The translations under genes were made by a program, and so were the position numbers. Positions 2,702-42,775 of a stretch of DNA of 42,775 nt are shown here, in pieces (within the stretch, counting starts at the first letter, position 1; every line of letters begins with the position of its first letter). A model generated the notes under the pieces. The model had not been told where the DNA came from. It made no database searches and saw nothing but the letters and a program-made list of their open reading frames with translations. The stretch lies in the NCBI GenBank assembly GCA_017625675.1, contig JAGAKK010000062.1, positions 1 to 42,775 on the forward strand. Direction: 5' to 3'. The DNA is from Clostridia bacterium (GTDB lineage: Bacteria; Bacillota; Clostridia; UBA1212).

Positions 2702-5089
2702 TTAGTCTGTGTAGTCACCGTTAGGCAACTTAACAGAAGAAGGATTAGCCGCAAGTCTCTTAAGTTGTGCCAAGTCAATACCATTGATTACAGTATTGGA
2801 AGTACCTGCAACGTTAGCAGCAGTAATTGCATCTGCTGACAATGTGCTTGCAGCAGGGTTAGCGGTGTATTTCTTAAGCTGAGCCAAGTCGATACCGTTA
2901 ATTCCGCCGTTAAGGTTAATATCACCAAGAACGTGGAAAGTAGCAGTAACTGTTACAGCGCCCTCAGGCATTGTAAATGATACGCCGGAAACAAATCCTG
3001 TAACTGTCTTTGTTATTGTAGCATCAACTGCTATTCCGGAAGCATCTACAACCGTGATGTTAGTACATACACAAGCAAGGCCTGTAGCTGTCATCTTAGG
3101 ATTAGCTGTAAGAGTAACTGTCTCGCCAGCCTCATAGTTAGCGCTGGAGAATGCTGTAGAAGTAGCAGTATCAAGAATCTCACCAGTGCCCTTACCACCG
3201 GCTACAATAGAAACTGCATATTCAGTTACAGGTGCGGGTGTAGGCTCCGTAGCTGTTGTATTTGTGTAAGTAGCTTCAACAACAACCTTCTCCTGTCCGC
3301 CAAGCATCAAAGCGCAAATCTGGAAAGGAACGTCTGTTCCGGTTGTAGAAACAGGAACGTTGATATTGAAGTAATATGCATGTCTGAGTCCATCAACAGT
3401 CATAGGCAATGTCTGAATGTCAGCGCTAACAACTTCGCCGTTAACTTTTACATAATAACCCATAATATCAAGGTAAGTATTTCCGTACCAGCCCTGGAAG
3501 TTGATGAATGGCATATCAGGTCTGAGCGCCATAGCCTCTGTGATATCGCCGAAAGCAAACGTAGCAACACCGTCATAATTCTCGTCAAAAGACTGTGCTG
3601 TGAAGATATTTTCCTCATTGCCGGAAGTGTAGTACCTTACAAAGTCAATGTTTGCAATATCTACACCGGTACTTGCAGTAGTAGTAGCAGTTTGTCTGAT
3701 GTAGTCAAGAGAGCCCTGTGCTGTGCAAGAAGGTGTAGGATCGTATACGAGAGCCAAAGAGTTCCATACCTTTCTCTCAGTAACACCGGTATCGTTAGTA
3801 AACGCTCTGTCTACGTAAGTGCCGTTGTCATCAAGAGTAACCATAGTGGTAGATCCACCGCCGTCCAAAAGGAAGCAGGTGTTGTATCCAACTCTGTGAG
3901 CAAAGTCGATCATATCCTTGAACTGCAAACCGCATCTTACTTCGTATTGATCAGCAGTAGCCATAGACATCAATACGGTACCGTCATCCTTATAACCGAT
4001 CATGTTGGTAGGATAGTCCTCGGGGTTACCAAGAAGAGAAGAGTCAAATGTATCGCCGTCTCTGAGGATCATGATGTGACCACCGATAGCGTTTACAACG
4101 TTCTGCCATGTAGCATTGTTGTAAGACCAGGGATCGTGGAGTACTGTGCCGAGAGTAACTGTGTTACCTACAGCGAACTTATCCTGAATTTCAGTAAGTC
4201 TTGTACCGCGGGCAGTAACTACTACCTGACCCTCAGTAAGAGCAGGACGAGTCTCGGAGTTAGCAGGATAAACAGCAGATACTGTACCGGTCATTGTCTG
4301 TCCAACCATGAACTTGTTATTATCAGTAGTAATAACGATTTCGTAAGAGTCAGACTTTGCACCGTTTACATCGTTAAGACGATTGTTGTAAACGTAGATA
4401 GCGTTATTTGCAGGAGCTCTGTTCAAACCGTCGAGAATAACGGAAGTTCCTGTAGTAGCATTTGTCAAAGTGATCTGACACTTAAGCATACCAACGATAG
4501 GCTGGTTGTCAGCAGTTACACCGAAAGAATAAGGACCGTCGTATGTCTTCTCCTGAGCAGTGATTTCAGTATACCAGATCTCTCCGTCGATAATCTGAAC
4601 ACCTGTACCTACTCTGTAAGCGGCAGTTGAATGTCCCATTAATGAATCAGATGTGTTTGCCCAATGCATCCAGTCACCGTTTACAGCAGCAAGGATCGTT
4701 CTGTCGTCCTTAGCGTACTTATTAACGTTATCCATAAGGAAGCTGGAACCCTTGATCTGATCAGTAAGAGTAACTGAGCTGTAGTGGTTCATAACCTCAA
4801 ACTTAAGATTTGTGTTTGAAAGGTCAGCCTCTACAATGTTGATGAGACGGTTTGTACCGTAAAGCTCATCGCCGTCTGCATTAAAGTCGATCTGCGTAAG
4901 AGTTGCACCGGAAGCAACACCGTTAACCTTAATATCAGTTGTGGTGCTGGAGTCCTGGCCTGTAAAAGATACATCCAGAGCGCTTGCAACAAGAGCAGAA
5001 GGTACGAGAACAGAAGCAAGAACTGCCATTGCGAGAACGCATGAGAGAACTTTTTTCATGTTCTTCTTGAATGTTTTTTGTGTATTCAT
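2702..5089 (-). CDS. Secreted phosphodiester glycosidase (NAGPA domain) with dockerin-like C-terminus
   Basis: This is a 795-residue secreted protein. Residues 1-37 form a signal peptide (basic start, hydrophobic core, ASA before the mature end). The catalytic region belongs to the phosphodiester glycosidase (NAGPA) family; its hallmark DGGGSTTM lies near residue 410, preceded by AVNGDWMHW and followed by NSLALVYDP. A middle region of unknown fold follows, then a beta-type bacterial repeat (YEAGETVTLTANP, then MPEGAVTVTATF). The last 75 residues are dockerin-like, with two copies of INGIDLAQLK. The first loop (GDINLNGGINGID) keeps calcium ligands, while the second is degenerate. GGGAGGAAAG precedes the ATG. 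The family cleaves GlcNAc-phosphodiester or related wall and glycan linkages; the exact substrate is unknown. The dockerin implies docking to a cohesin on the cell surface. Confidence 0.85.
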   Translation of the reverse strand: MNTQKTFKKNMKKVLSCVLAMAVLASVLVPSALVASALDVSFTGQDSSTTTDIKVNGVASGATLTQIDFNADGDELYGTNRLINIVEADLSNTNLKFEVMNHYSSVTLTDQIKGSSFLMDNVNKYAKDDRTILAAVNGDWMHWANTSDSLMGHSTAAYRVGTGVQIIDGEIWYTEITAQEKTYDGPYSFGVTADNQPIVGMLKCQITLTNATTGTSVILDGLNRAPANNAIYVYNNRLNDVNGAKSDSYEIVITTDNNKFMVGQTMTGTVSAVYPANSETRPALTEGQVVVTARGTRLTEIQDKFAVGNTVTLGTVLHDPWSYNNATWQNVVNAIGGHIMILRDGDTFDSSLLGNPEDYPTNMIGYKDDGTVLMSMATADQYEVRCGLQFKDMIDFAHRVGYNTCFLLDGGGSTTMVTLDDNGTYVDRAFTNDTGVTERKVWNSLALVYDPTPSCTAQGSLDYIRQTATTTASTGVDIANIDFVRYYTSGNEENIFTAQSFDENYDGVATFAFGDITEAMALRPDMPFINFQGWYGNTYLDIMGYYVKVNGEVVSADIQTLPMTVDGLRHAYYFNINVPVSTTGTDVPFQICALMLGGQEKVVVEATYTNTTATEPTPAPVTEYAVSIVAGGKGTGEILDTATSTAFSSANYEAGETVTLTANPKMTATGLACVCTNITVVDASGIAVDATITKTVTGFVSGVSFTMPEGAVTVTATFHVLGDINLNGGINGIDLAQLKKYTANPAASTLSADAITAANVAGTSNTVINGIDLAQLKRLAANPSSVKLPNGDYTD

Positions 5090-5327: not shown

Positions 5328-5480
5328 TGCACCTTCAGGGACCGACCGTCTGCTTCGCAGACTGACGGCTCGACGACCGCAAGGTTTCCCTTGCGGTGCC
5401 CGTCTGCGCCGCTCCCAAATATTTTTAAATATTTGTATTGATGCGACAGCATCATATTCTCCCGGGTTCGAGTCCCTGCC
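5328..5480 (-). repeat. tRNA-linked structured repeat, copy 1
   Basis: This element follows tRNA-Lys and its terminator. Its far end (5328-5342) is a 15-base exact copy of the tRNA-Lys 3' end without CCA (5543-5557). Its near end (5463-5478) is an inverted T-arm, CGGGTTCGAGTCCCTG. The interior carries two stems on either strand: ACCGCAAGG/CCTTGCGGT around a GAAA tetraloop when read on the minus strand (5376-5397), and GTCTGC/GCAGAC around GAA. The motifs CAGGGACCGACCGTCTGC, GGCTCGACGACCGC and CCCGTCTGCGCC recur in the same order at copy 2 (32295-32498), beside another tRNA. It has no coding potential that I believe. The remaining gap (5188-5327) is AT-rich and shows nothing recognisable. Confidence 0.7.
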
Positions 5481-5495
5481 ATAATATTTCGTAAT

Positions 5496-5537
5496 AAAAA
5501 AAGAAACCCATATCGATAGATATGGGTTTCTTTTTTT
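5496..5537. terminator. Bidirectional intrinsic terminator after tRNA-Lys
   Basis: GAAACCCATATC and GATATGGGTTTC pair around a short loop, flanked by an A-tract on the left and a T-tract on the right, so it works on either strand. It begins 2 bases after the tRNA CCA end. Confidence 0.88.
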
Positions 5538-5539
5538 AT

Positions 5540-5615
5540 TGGTGCACCTTCAGGGACTCGAACCCTGGACCCACTGATTAAGAGTCAGTTGCTCTACCAG
5601 CTGAGCTAAAGGTGC
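5540..5615 (-). tRNA. tRNA-Lys(CUU)
   Basis: The minus strand folds as a standard 76-base tRNA with acceptor GCACCTT/AAGGTGC, discriminator A and an encoded CCA. The D-arm is GCTCAGCTGGTAGAGC, the anticodon loop reads CTCTTAA (anticodon CTT) and the T-arm contains GGGTTCGAGTCCC. Confidence 0.97.
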
Positions 5616-5794: not shown

Positions 5795-6346
5795 ATGAAA
5801 AATCACATTTACGAAAATGAAAAACGAAATGATTTTAAAGATATTCTTATAAAGCTTGCCATATTATCAGCCTTCCCCCTGCTGTTTTCTGCAGTTTTCC
5901 TGCCGGATCTTGCCTATTATGCCCTTGGCGCTGTACTTTTATGTATGTCTGTTCACGATATTATTACTTTACAAGTGCCTGATATTCTCCTTGTGGTTTT
6001 TACGGTGTGCGGATTTCCTTTTCTTGGTGAAACAGACACAAAGGGACTTATCACCAAAATATTGGTTGCCCTTTTCATTATTGGCGGCGGTTTTTTTATA
6101 AATCGTAAAAAATACAGACTCGGAGGCGCAGATATAAAAATCATGGCGATATTATGCCTTGTTGCAGGACCGCTGTTTAGTATAAAGGTTTTCATTACGG
6201 CCAACTGTCTCTTGTTATTGCCTGCAGTAATTGTTTTCGTATTTAACTTTATACAAAAAAAGACACGAAATCGCTGCCGTAACGCGGAGCTTCCTTTCGT
6301 GCCTTTTATCTTTTTGGGTTTTATTATGGTGCTTTTGACACAATAA
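5795..6346 (+). CDS. A24-type prepilin peptidase, single-domain
   Basis: This is a 183-residue integral membrane protein with about five hydrophobic segments. It has the two aspartates expected of the A24 aspartic prepilin peptidase family: D55 in SVHDIITLQVPD and D113 in LGGADIK. The family cleaves leader peptides of type IV pilin-like proteins on the cytosolic face. Only the peptidase half is present; the N-methyltransferase domain of bifunctional PilD/ComC proteins is missing, as in many short Gram-positive homologues (CpaA/TadV-like). AAGGAGG lies 10-11 bases before the ATG. No pilin, ATPase or secretion genes are nearby, so its substrates must be encoded elsewhere. It is convergent with obgE, with a 15-bp gap. 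Confidence 0.85.
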   Translation: MKNHIYENEKRNDFKDILIKLAILSAFPLLFSAVFLPDLAYYALGAVLLCMSVHDIITLQVPDILLVVFTVCGFPFLGETDTKGLITKILVALFIIGGGFFINRKKYRLGGADIKIMAILCLVAGPLFSIKVFITANCLLLLPAVIVFVFNFIQKKTRNRCRNAELPFVPFIFLGFIMVLLTQ

Positions 6347-6361
6347 TAATTACACTAAACG

Positions 6362-32235: not shown

Positions 32236-32294
32236 GTAAAGTTTTACGAACTCCATCACAGGTTCGAGCTATATTTTTTTATACTTTGAAAAAA

Positions 32295-32498
32295 GGCCAT
32301 CAGGGACCGACCGTCTGCTGCGCCGCCCCTTTTGACTTTTACTGCGGCTTGCATACTGCCGGCTCGACGACCGCTACGCTTCGCTTGCAGTACCCGTCTG
32401 CGCCTATCCGAGTTTGAATGCATTATCAATGCATTCAGGTCGCTTCAAGCGCTTATACGACCACACTCGGCTCCCTCACGGGTTCGAGCCCCTGATGT
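32295..32498 (-). repeat. tRNA-linked structured repeat, copy 2
   Basis: This is the same design as copy 1 (5328-5480). The far end (32295-32307) is a 13-base copy of the neighbouring CAU tRNA's 3' end (32559-32571). CAGGGACCGACCGTCTGC follows, then GGCTCGACGACCGC and CCCGTCTGCGCC. The near end is an inverted T-arm, CGGGTTCGAGCCCCTG (32480-32495). Compared with copy 1 the interior is longer and has different variable stems, while the ACTGC/GCGGT hairpin with a GAA cap occupies the place of ACCGC/GCGGT, so pairing is kept by a G-U change. The flank 32236-32294 is AT-rich and shows nothing else. Confidence 0.7.
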
Positions 32499-32510
32499 AT
32501 GATCCTACTT

Positions 32511-32554
32511 AACGCAAAAACACCCGCACCTCACGGTACGGGTGTTTTTGCGTT
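32511..32554. terminator. Bidirectional terminator after the CAU tRNA
   Basis: A perfect 16-bp inverted repeat (AACGCAAAAACACCCG and its complement) surrounds a 12-base loop, giving A- and T-runs on both strands. It touches the tRNA CCA end. Confidence 0.88.
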
Positions 32555-32630
32555 GGTGGGCCATCAGGGACTCGAACCCCGGACCGACCGGTTATGAGCC
32601 GGTTGCTCTAACCAACTGAGCTAGTGGCCC
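32554..32630 (-). tRNA. tRNA with CAU anticodon, probably tRNA-Ile2 (lysidine type)
   Basis: The minus strand folds as a 77-base tRNA with acceptor GGGCCAC, discriminator A and an encoded CCA. The D-arm is GCTCAGTTGGTTAGAGC and the anticodon arm is CCGGCTCATAACCGG. The GGCTCATAACC anticodon arm resembles Firmicute tRNA-Ile2 more than elongator tRNA-Met (GACTCATAATC). The base of the acceptor stem has a C7-A66 mismatch. The Ile2 versus Met call is tentative. Confidence 0.9.
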
Positions 32631-41690: not shown

Positions 41691-42775
41691 TTATCCGAAG
41701 AAGTCCCCAAGATTATCAAACTCCTTCTTTTTCAGTTCCTTTGTCACGTCAACATAGATATCCATCGTAGTCGAAATATCCTTGTGACCTAATACGTCCT
41801 GAATAACCTTAATGTTAAGTCCTGCTTCACAAAGACGGGTGGCAAAGGTATGCCTGAGTGAATGGCAACTGAAGTGCGGGAGCAACAACGGGAATTCATC
41901 ACCGTCAGCGTTATTCAGTATTTCATCGTTACAATCTCTGGTAATGCGGCGTATGGCTTTATTCAGAGTTCCTTGGTGCTGCGCTTTCCCGTAACGGTTG
42001 ATAAAGATGAAATCCGTATACCCATCAATCGTGACCGAGCAGCTGATCCCCGCATCCTCCTGATACTGTTTTTCAAGTAAGAACGCTTCCTTAACCCAAT
42101 CCATCATCGGTATAGTTCGCTCGCCGGCCGCTGTCTTTGGTGTATTGATTGCGAAACTGCAATTCTTGGCTCCTCCCTTATTATAATAGATAAGGGTATG
42201 GTTGACATGAATGAGTCCTTCCTCCAGATCAATATCGCACCAACGAAGACCGATCAATTCACCAACACGCATTCCTGTTCCGAGCATCACCGCAAATACC
42301 GGATACCAATGGTTATACATTCGGTTCCTTTTGAGAAAGTCCATCAACAGATTTTGCTCTGCAATCGTTAAGGCATTTCGCTTTTCCTGCTGGAAATTAT
42401 GCGATTGCTTTAACTCCTTGAGCATATTATCTGTTGGGTTGGTTCGCATATATCCATCCTCGATAGCCACGTTAAACACCTGATGCAGAATATTTTGTAC
42501 GGTATCGATCGTGGCTATGCTCATCACTCTCTCGTCAACCAAGCGGTTATAGAAACGACGGACATCGGATTTTTTTACATCGGTCAGACGTTGCCTCCCG
42601 AAGGTATGACGGACAAACATATTGTACATGTACACATAGTTTTGAAAGGTATTATCCTTAATACCGCGCTTGAGCGTACACCACAAATCAAACATATCGT
42701 TGACGGTTATACGCTTGACCTCCACCTTAATTCCATCCCGCTTATCACTGATGATGGCCTCTTCCTTTTCGCGAA
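41691..42775 (-). CDS. Tyrosine integrase of Tn916/phage type (5' end beyond the window)
   Basis: The frame is open to the right edge, so the N-terminal domain is missing; about 360 residues are visible. The first visible residues (REKEEAIISDKRDGIKV) fit the linker before the core-binding domain of Tn916-like integrases, so a GTG at 42725 is not the start. The SAM-like core-binding domain follows, then the catalytic domain with Arg in GTGMRVGELIGL, HSLRHTFATRL (His-x-x-Arg), LGHKD and the nucleophile Tyr in TTMDIYVDV. It catalyses site-specific integration and excision of a mobile element that should extend to the right. Its stop is followed by phased repeats and an inverted repeat that may be attachment-site parts. 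Confidence 0.93.
   Translation of the reverse strand, partial: REKEEAIISDKRDGIKVEVKRITVNDMFDLWCTLKRGIKDNTFQNYVYMYNMFVRHTFGRQRLTDVKKSDVRRFYNRLVDERVMSIATIDTVQNILHQVFNVAIEDGYMRTNPTDNMLKELKQSHNFQQEKRNALTIAEQNLLMDFLKRNRMYNHWYPVFAVMLGTGMRVGELIGLRWCDIDLEEGLIHVNHTLIYYNKGGAKNCSFAINTPKTAAGERTIPMMDWVKEAFLLEKQYQEDAGISCSVTIDGYTDFIFINRYGKAQHQGTLNKAIRRITRDCNDEILNNADGDEFPLLLPHFSCHSLRHTFATRLCEAGLNIKVIQDVLGHKDISTTMDIYVDVTKELKKKEFDNLGDFFG

Follow-up and report, generated by a model that had tools for sequence, protein, structure and literature searches.

Folded elements behind tRNA genes of gut Clostridia as possible attachment sites of a tRNA-anchored cassette system

Features of the locus

Two tRNA genes on the minus strand of the window (the whole stretch of DNA that was analysed, 42,775 nucleotides from a Clostridia bacterium) are each followed by an intrinsic terminator, by a folded element that we call X and by a copy of the 3' end of the same tRNA (Table 1). 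An earlier note on this DNA, made from the sequence alone, had described a GC-rich element after tRNA-Lys and its terminator, which is correct once the bounds of both are moved to those in Table 1, and had treated it as a single isolated interval, overlooking the second copy beside tRNA-Met. The GC content of the Lys copy is 0.60-0.67 and that of its surroundings about 0.2-0.3. Its strong hairpins, one with a GAAA loop (visible in GGGAAACC on the tRNA strand), had been read correctly: in comparison with dinucleotide shuffles the z score of the fold is -5.8 for the tRNA strand and -6.8 for the opposite strand, and none of 200 shuffles folds as well. A repeat search of the window recovers the reported repetition of the tRNA-Lys 3' end as an exact 15-base direct repeat (TGCACCTTCAGGGAC), with the tail copy matching positions 5543-5557, and the reported inverted T-arm as a pair (5460-5478 and 5551-5569) with 95% complementarity; this arm is not incidental and is the most constrained part of X. 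The Lys tail copy matches bases 59-76 over only 15 of 18 positions, its CCA having decayed to TTT.

Table 1. Positions of the tRNA genes, terminators and parts of element X in the window
Feature	Positions	Strand	Basis
tRNA-Lys tail copy (15/18 bases), abuts 3' end of X	5328-5342	minus	repeat search
Folded element X, Lys copy	5338-5476	minus	covariance model R1, 99.3 bits, E 2.8e-24; folding
Lys-copy inverted T-arm (GGGACTCGAACCC, tRNA strand), 13/13 complementary to tRNA-Lys T-arm	5464-5476	minus	
Intrinsic terminator between tRNA-Lys and X, 22-bp perfect stem and T run	5493-5540	minus	repeat search
tRNA-Lys tail, bases 59-76 with CCA (duplicated stretch)	5540-5557	minus	sequence
tRNA-Lys T-arm, bases 51-63 (GGGTTCGAGTCCC), mirrored by X	5553-5565	minus	sequence
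tRNA-Lys(CTT), host of first X	5540-5615	minus	ARAGORN and Rfam RF00005
Likely remnant of a second X start (GCTCGAACCTGTGATGG), by comparison with other array ends	32253-32269	minus	sequence; inferred
tRNA-Met tail copy (13 bases), abuts X	32295-32307	minus	sequence
Folded element X, Met copy	32303-32492	minus	covariance model R1, 191.4 bits, E 1.9e-48
Met-copy inverted T-arm, 12/13 complementary	32480-32492	minus	sequence
Intrinsic terminator between tRNA-Met and X	32512-32553	minus	sequence
tRNA-Met(CAT), host of second X	32554-32630	minus	tRNA gene prediction

Truncated copies of X that keep the first 17-31 bases often close arrays, as at loci L101, L102, L103 and L090 and, probably, behind the Met copy of the window (Table 1). 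Downstream of the Lys element and on the same strand, positions 2702-5089 encode a 795-residue protein with an apparent signal peptide and C-terminal dockerin-like repeats, which was not counted as cargo because no second X follows it. An Rfam 15 covariance search of the window gave no match over X at the gathering score and nothing credible in permissive mode, and a search of the open literature, as distinct from subscription papers, returned nothing describing X, in keeping with the earlier statement that it resembles no named family.

Distribution and position of the copies

A first search of the source genome with the Lys element gave partial matches beside other tRNAs. This genome holds five copies of X, beside tRNA-Lys, tRNA-Met, tRNA-Glu, tmRNA and tRNA-Arg, from which the covariance model R1 was built; run on the same genome, R1 returns these five and one fragment adjoining the Glu copy. 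Among relatives, 17 of 58 genomes (its own genome included) are positive, with up to 11 copies each. Across the class, R1 finds X in 49 of 391 genomes and 32 of 223 genera, and across the phylum in three of 398 genomes; besides the source genome of the window, these comprise one from its class and one from outside it. A DNA pattern scan of named genomes yielded about 45 more copies, nearly all in metagenome-assembled Clostridia and Oscillospiraceae and many from ruminant gut. X was not found in phage and plasmid records. Pattern matches in IMG/VR included no convincing R1 match and were taken as chance, and non-clostridial pattern matches, judged without R1 scoring, were set aside as probable chance.

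X is 120-200 bases in size and lies just after tRNA genes of gut Clostridia. Of the 102 distinct copies gathered for a census of position, 65 share the strand of a tRNA or tmRNA gene and follow it at a distance of 37-128 bp (median 53). These hosts represent 13 isotypes and tmRNA (Arg 14, Lys 10, Ser 7, Ala 5, Pro 5, Glu 4, Leu 4, tmRNA 3, His 3, Trp 3, and others). Another six copies follow a further copy, five are at contig edges and 26 lie elsewhere, several of the latter being the second site of an array or standing behind cargo genes. An in-frame CCA follows X in 76 of the 102 copies, in many cases with no intact tRNA upstream. The earlier note had made its reading depend on further copies beside tRNAs in this genome or its relatives and on ends that follow the adjacent tRNA; many such copies exist, and their ends are described next.

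Mirror T-arm, fold and strand

On the tRNA strand, the order of features is tRNA with CCA, intrinsic terminator, X, tRNA tail copy and frequently a second terminator. X opens with a reverse-complemented copy of bases 51-63 of the T-arm of its own tRNA, referred to below as the mirror T-arm. In the 51 copies with a recognizable host tRNA or T-arm, the mirror T-arm has a mean of 0.20 mismatches over 13 bases and is perfect in 41, compared with means of 2.2 and 5.7 when T-arms were shuffled among loci. Bases 59 and 57 are each matched in all 51 copies (39% and 66% expected, respectively), and the match at base 57 is not explained by the internal fold alone, since this base has no partner inside most copies of X. 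The match is lost gradually past bases 64-65 and has an abrupt edge at 50/51. Unusual T-arms are mirrored too, including GCG/CGC in a tRNA-Thr (L210) and GAG/CTT in a tRNA-Arg (L196).

The fold of X is supported by compensatory changes in 23 of 34 predicted pairs among 29 aligned copies, and the covarying pairs lie in the closing stem and in four hairpins, the first and three others. Of 74 copies, 72 fold better on the sense strand; where a helix contains a single mismatch, it is G-T in 50 cases and A-C in three. This strand bias, together with the excess of G-T, indicates that X works as a folded single strand of tRNA sense, as either RNA or DNA. In two arrays of genome G039, L093 (about 6195-6355) and L094 (about 5380-5550), the second X carries a related insert of ~160 bp, placed in both at the tip of the same hairpin.

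Tail copy, arrays and cargo

X ends against a copy of tRNA bases 59-76. The direct repeat in many copies consists of exactly these bases, with divergence thereafter; in others it extends into an identical terminator, up to 65 bp, so that the boundary is not uniform, a point against the model proposed below. The resemblance of the tail copy to an attachment or target duplication had been recognized correctly. Units of ~200 bp (tail, CCA, terminator and X) are repeated in tandem at L088, L150 and L218. The cassette leaders of L086 (tRNA-Ser) and L291 (tRNA-Trp) share 89% identity over 145 bp from the CCA onwards, with seven differences between their 18-base tails, and L303 (Trp tail) and L304 (Lys tail) share a leader starting two to three bases after the CCA. 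Shared leaders beside different tails place the unit boundary of these loci at or just after the CCA and assign the tail to the target. At L086, L291 and L096, the first tail copy is followed by a conserved leader, as much as about 400 bp long, that precedes unrelated sequence or cargo and may carry a promoter.

Most units are gene-less. The earlier description of a lone interval of about 215 bp without a gene is incomplete, as the family numbers more than 100 copies, some with cargo genes. L309 has the order tRNA-Leu, tail, terminator, 23S_rRNA_IVP gene, AraC/Cass2 gene, terminator, X, tail and terminator, and its AraC-type regulator bears a Cass2 domain ('integron-associated effector binding'). 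The cargo is an 82-residue putative lipoprotein at L298, two small ORFs at L203, an HTH-AAA-CYTH protein and an unknown 402-residue protein between two X sites at L086, and an apparently secreted 1151-residue protein with an InlB-like repeat domain at L291. A scan of the cargo for defence genes found nothing convincing. At L292, two copies of X flank a 15-kb island that encodes its own tyrosine recombinase and a type I restriction system. The direct repeat of this island extends from the anticodon arm and takes in X, so the island is an ordinary one that duplicated X along with half of the tRNA, X being a passenger.

Spread within and between genomes

Bodies of X were compared after alignment and removal of the tRNA-dependent ends. 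Copies in one genome share 71% identity across tRNAs; between genomes, copies at the same isotype share 60%, and the remaining pairs 57%. On a tree of the bodies, genome labels change 42 times, below all 1000 shuffles (mean 47.4), and isotype labels are weakly clustered (38 changes against a mean of 41.4, with 47 of 1000 shuffles as low). The likeness within genomes indicates that bodies spread or homogenize inside a genome while their ends follow the local tRNA. The attC sites of archaea and of bacterial chromosomes likewise resemble each other more within a genome than between genomes, which has been named as one of their hallmarks (PMC9668308). At the tRNA-Ala(CGC) locus of four congeners, the gene is identical and the downstream sequence wholly different, being either X or a different element, X' (see below); the comparison shows downstream turnover with no clean empty site. 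An empty-site comparison with a tRNA-Ser query matched no orthologous tRNA. Neither an excised circle nor an empty/filled strain pair was seen, which counts against the model proposed below.

In 20 X-bearing genomes, no integron integrase (IntI, TIGR02249) scored over the cut-off, Cas1 was found in one and reverse transcriptase in eight; G039, which is 100% complete with at least 11 copies of X, has no reverse transcriptase. In G002 (97% complete, X-bearing), the only Phage_integrase match belongs to the conserved Xer-like type. Candidates for a dedicated tyrosine recombinase were listed and compared, and none was linked to X. An integrase gene adjoins the L088 array, and X is nearby at one of 27 integrase loci checked. 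A tyrosine recombinase gene also lies at the edge of the window (41739-42371, minus strand), with no adjoining tRNA found there.

Proposed function and comparison with known systems

Our best explanation, offered tentatively and with somewhat less than even confidence, is that X is the attachment site of a tRNA-anchored, integron-like cassette system with a putative recombinase and presumed mobility. We are slightly less confident still of its fuller form, in which the T-arm of any tRNA gene may be the docking site, the folded X a replaceable address, and an enzyme may place gene cassettes behind such genes throughout gut Clostridia. A unit would run from just after the tRNA CCA, through a terminator and sometimes genes, to the folded X, and would be followed by the copy of bases 59-76. 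The mirror T-arm would pair with a copy of the same T-arm that is split between the first hairpin, which holds T-stem bases 51-53, and the 3' end of X, which holds bases 59-63. The T-arm-like duplex, formed by X as single-stranded DNA, would be offered to a recombinase acting in trans, which would cut between A58 and base 59 and join X to base 59 of a tRNA of the same kind, so moving the unit. The tRNA would stay whole because its 18-base tail is retained in front of the unit. Such a T-arm-addressed recombination site would explain why there are tail copies, arrays and cargo units, why one strand is preferred and why X matches its target. Simple crossover of a tail-carrying circle was considered as a route between tRNA types and rejected, as it would leave a chimaeric tRNA; adaptation of both ends at a new tRNA type goes beyond simple crossover and counts against the cassette model.

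The proposed system shares with integrons its short units of one or more genes followed by a folded site, its fixed orientation (found at L309, L298, L203, L086 and L291), tandem arrays, strand-specific folding and small cargo genes, including one for a Cass2-domain protein. Unlike integrons, it has neither IntI nor an attI site by an integrase, and uses many tRNA genes in place of one platform. An attC site is a single hairpin with R and L boxes, GTT/AAC cores and extrahelical bases, whereas X has a multibranched fold that includes four covarying hairpins, and it starts with 13 bases that vary with the local T-arm; the T-arm and mirror pair resembles the R and L boxes only loosely. The multibranched form, the many gene-less units and the absence of a recombinase linked to X count against the integron-like reading.

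A less probable alternative, which we consider unlikely, is that X is a structured noncoding RNA, possibly a ribozyme with an internal guide, that acts on the T-arm of its own tRNA. It would be made by read-through from the tRNA or cargo, with the mirror T-arm as guide and the tail copy as a tRNA-like 3' end. The strong covariation and sense-strand G-U preference suit such an RNA, and a conserved U-G pair (24 of 29 copies) and conserved GA/GAA internal loops are compatible with RNA too and count against a DNA site. The guide is complementary across the joined bases 58/59, as in the internal guide of group I introns, where P1/P10 pair with both sides of the junction; X differs from these introns in having no P3-P7 core found (no Rfam match) and no intron position that requires splicing. 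In 67 of 99 copies a hairpin resembling a terminator stands just upstream of X, at a median distance of 16 nt that offers scarcely any space for a promoter; among random windows, 103 of 495 (21%) have such a hairpin. Three-base loops close 112 of 163 perfect hairpins; there are 18 GNRA tetraloops and none of the UNCG type. These two features lean towards DNA and neither is decisive. The RNA reading also has no Rfam match in its favour and leaves arrays and cassettes unexplained.

The remaining alternatives treat X as a part or product of other mobile elements. That the copies are remnants of tyrosine-recombinase islands or prophages at tRNA sites, with X as a shared attP arm region, seems to us improbable. 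A whole tRNA with a 3'-end copy at the far side is exactly what islands, ICEs and prophages leave, and this direct repeat is found at X; the L292 island and the integrase gene beside the L088 array also fit. Against it, X is a passenger at L292, lies near only one of the 27 integrase loci checked and forms integrase-free units of ~200 bp, most without a gene; a single family with an inverted T-arm serves 14 kinds of tRNA or tmRNA (13 isotypes and tmRNA), with the mirror fitted to each, and a covarying single-stranded fold would not be expected of att arms. Improbable to almost the same, marginally greater degree is a small non-autonomous transposable element (MITE/REP-like or casposon-like) with a transposase in trans and an 18-bp target duplication, which the 18-base tail copies and the CCA unit boundary resemble. 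Casposons can indeed insert in tRNA genes with target duplications of 14-15 bp (PMC6614799), but 19 of 20 X-bearing genomes have no Cas1, the duplication at X is 18 bases fixed to 59-76, there are no terminal inverted repeats beyond the T-arm mirror, the 5' ends of units are variable terminators, and transposition offers no reason for ends that match the local T-arm. Spread by reverse transcription, primed by or copied from tRNA, is the reading we find hardest to credit. A reverse transcriptase that copies a tRNA primer covers 18 bases, 59-76, before it meets m1A58, and the tail copy likewise begins exactly after A58 and in many copies stops at CCA76. The primer-binding sites of LTR retroelements also consist of 18 bases with an exact match to tRNA 59-76. 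However, most hosts of X, among them G039, have no reverse transcriptase, X folds on the tRNA sense strand and has no LTRs, and the duplications often continue into a terminator that is absent from any mature tRNA.

For each of four known classes, namely integrons, casposons, tRNA-primed retroelements and ordinary tRNA islands, X lacks one or more of the defining features that were tested. With caution, since mobility is presumed and the comparison covers open papers, we rate X as a categorically new kind of element. If the tRNA-anchored cassette model is right, tRNA genes in gut Clostridia would offer numerous parallel docking points for gene cassettes, each folded site carrying a short mirror of the target as its address. 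Such a system would do the work of integrons in a second, independently evolved way, and might serve as a tool to direct insertions to tRNA genes. To our knowledge, integrons are little known in this bacterial group. Should X prove to be an RNA, it would represent a new RNA family, one whose members pair with individual tRNAs. On either reading, the covariance model makes X directly searchable and the mirror T-arm yields clear predictions.

Other structured repeats

A second structured repeat, X' (GGGGTCCCCGCAAAGTC..GGAGCCGCAGCG..GGCGACGC), lies behind tRNAs in the g3 genus at L078 (1706-1862 and 1930-2083), L313, L316 and L085. At L078 and L313 it has a mirror T-arm start and a tail end, as in X, and at L085 it is located inside X. 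Spacers of G376 contain dense short palindromes (REP-like, GCTAAATTNGC) at L304 (4680-4850) and, past the tail, at L305 and L310.
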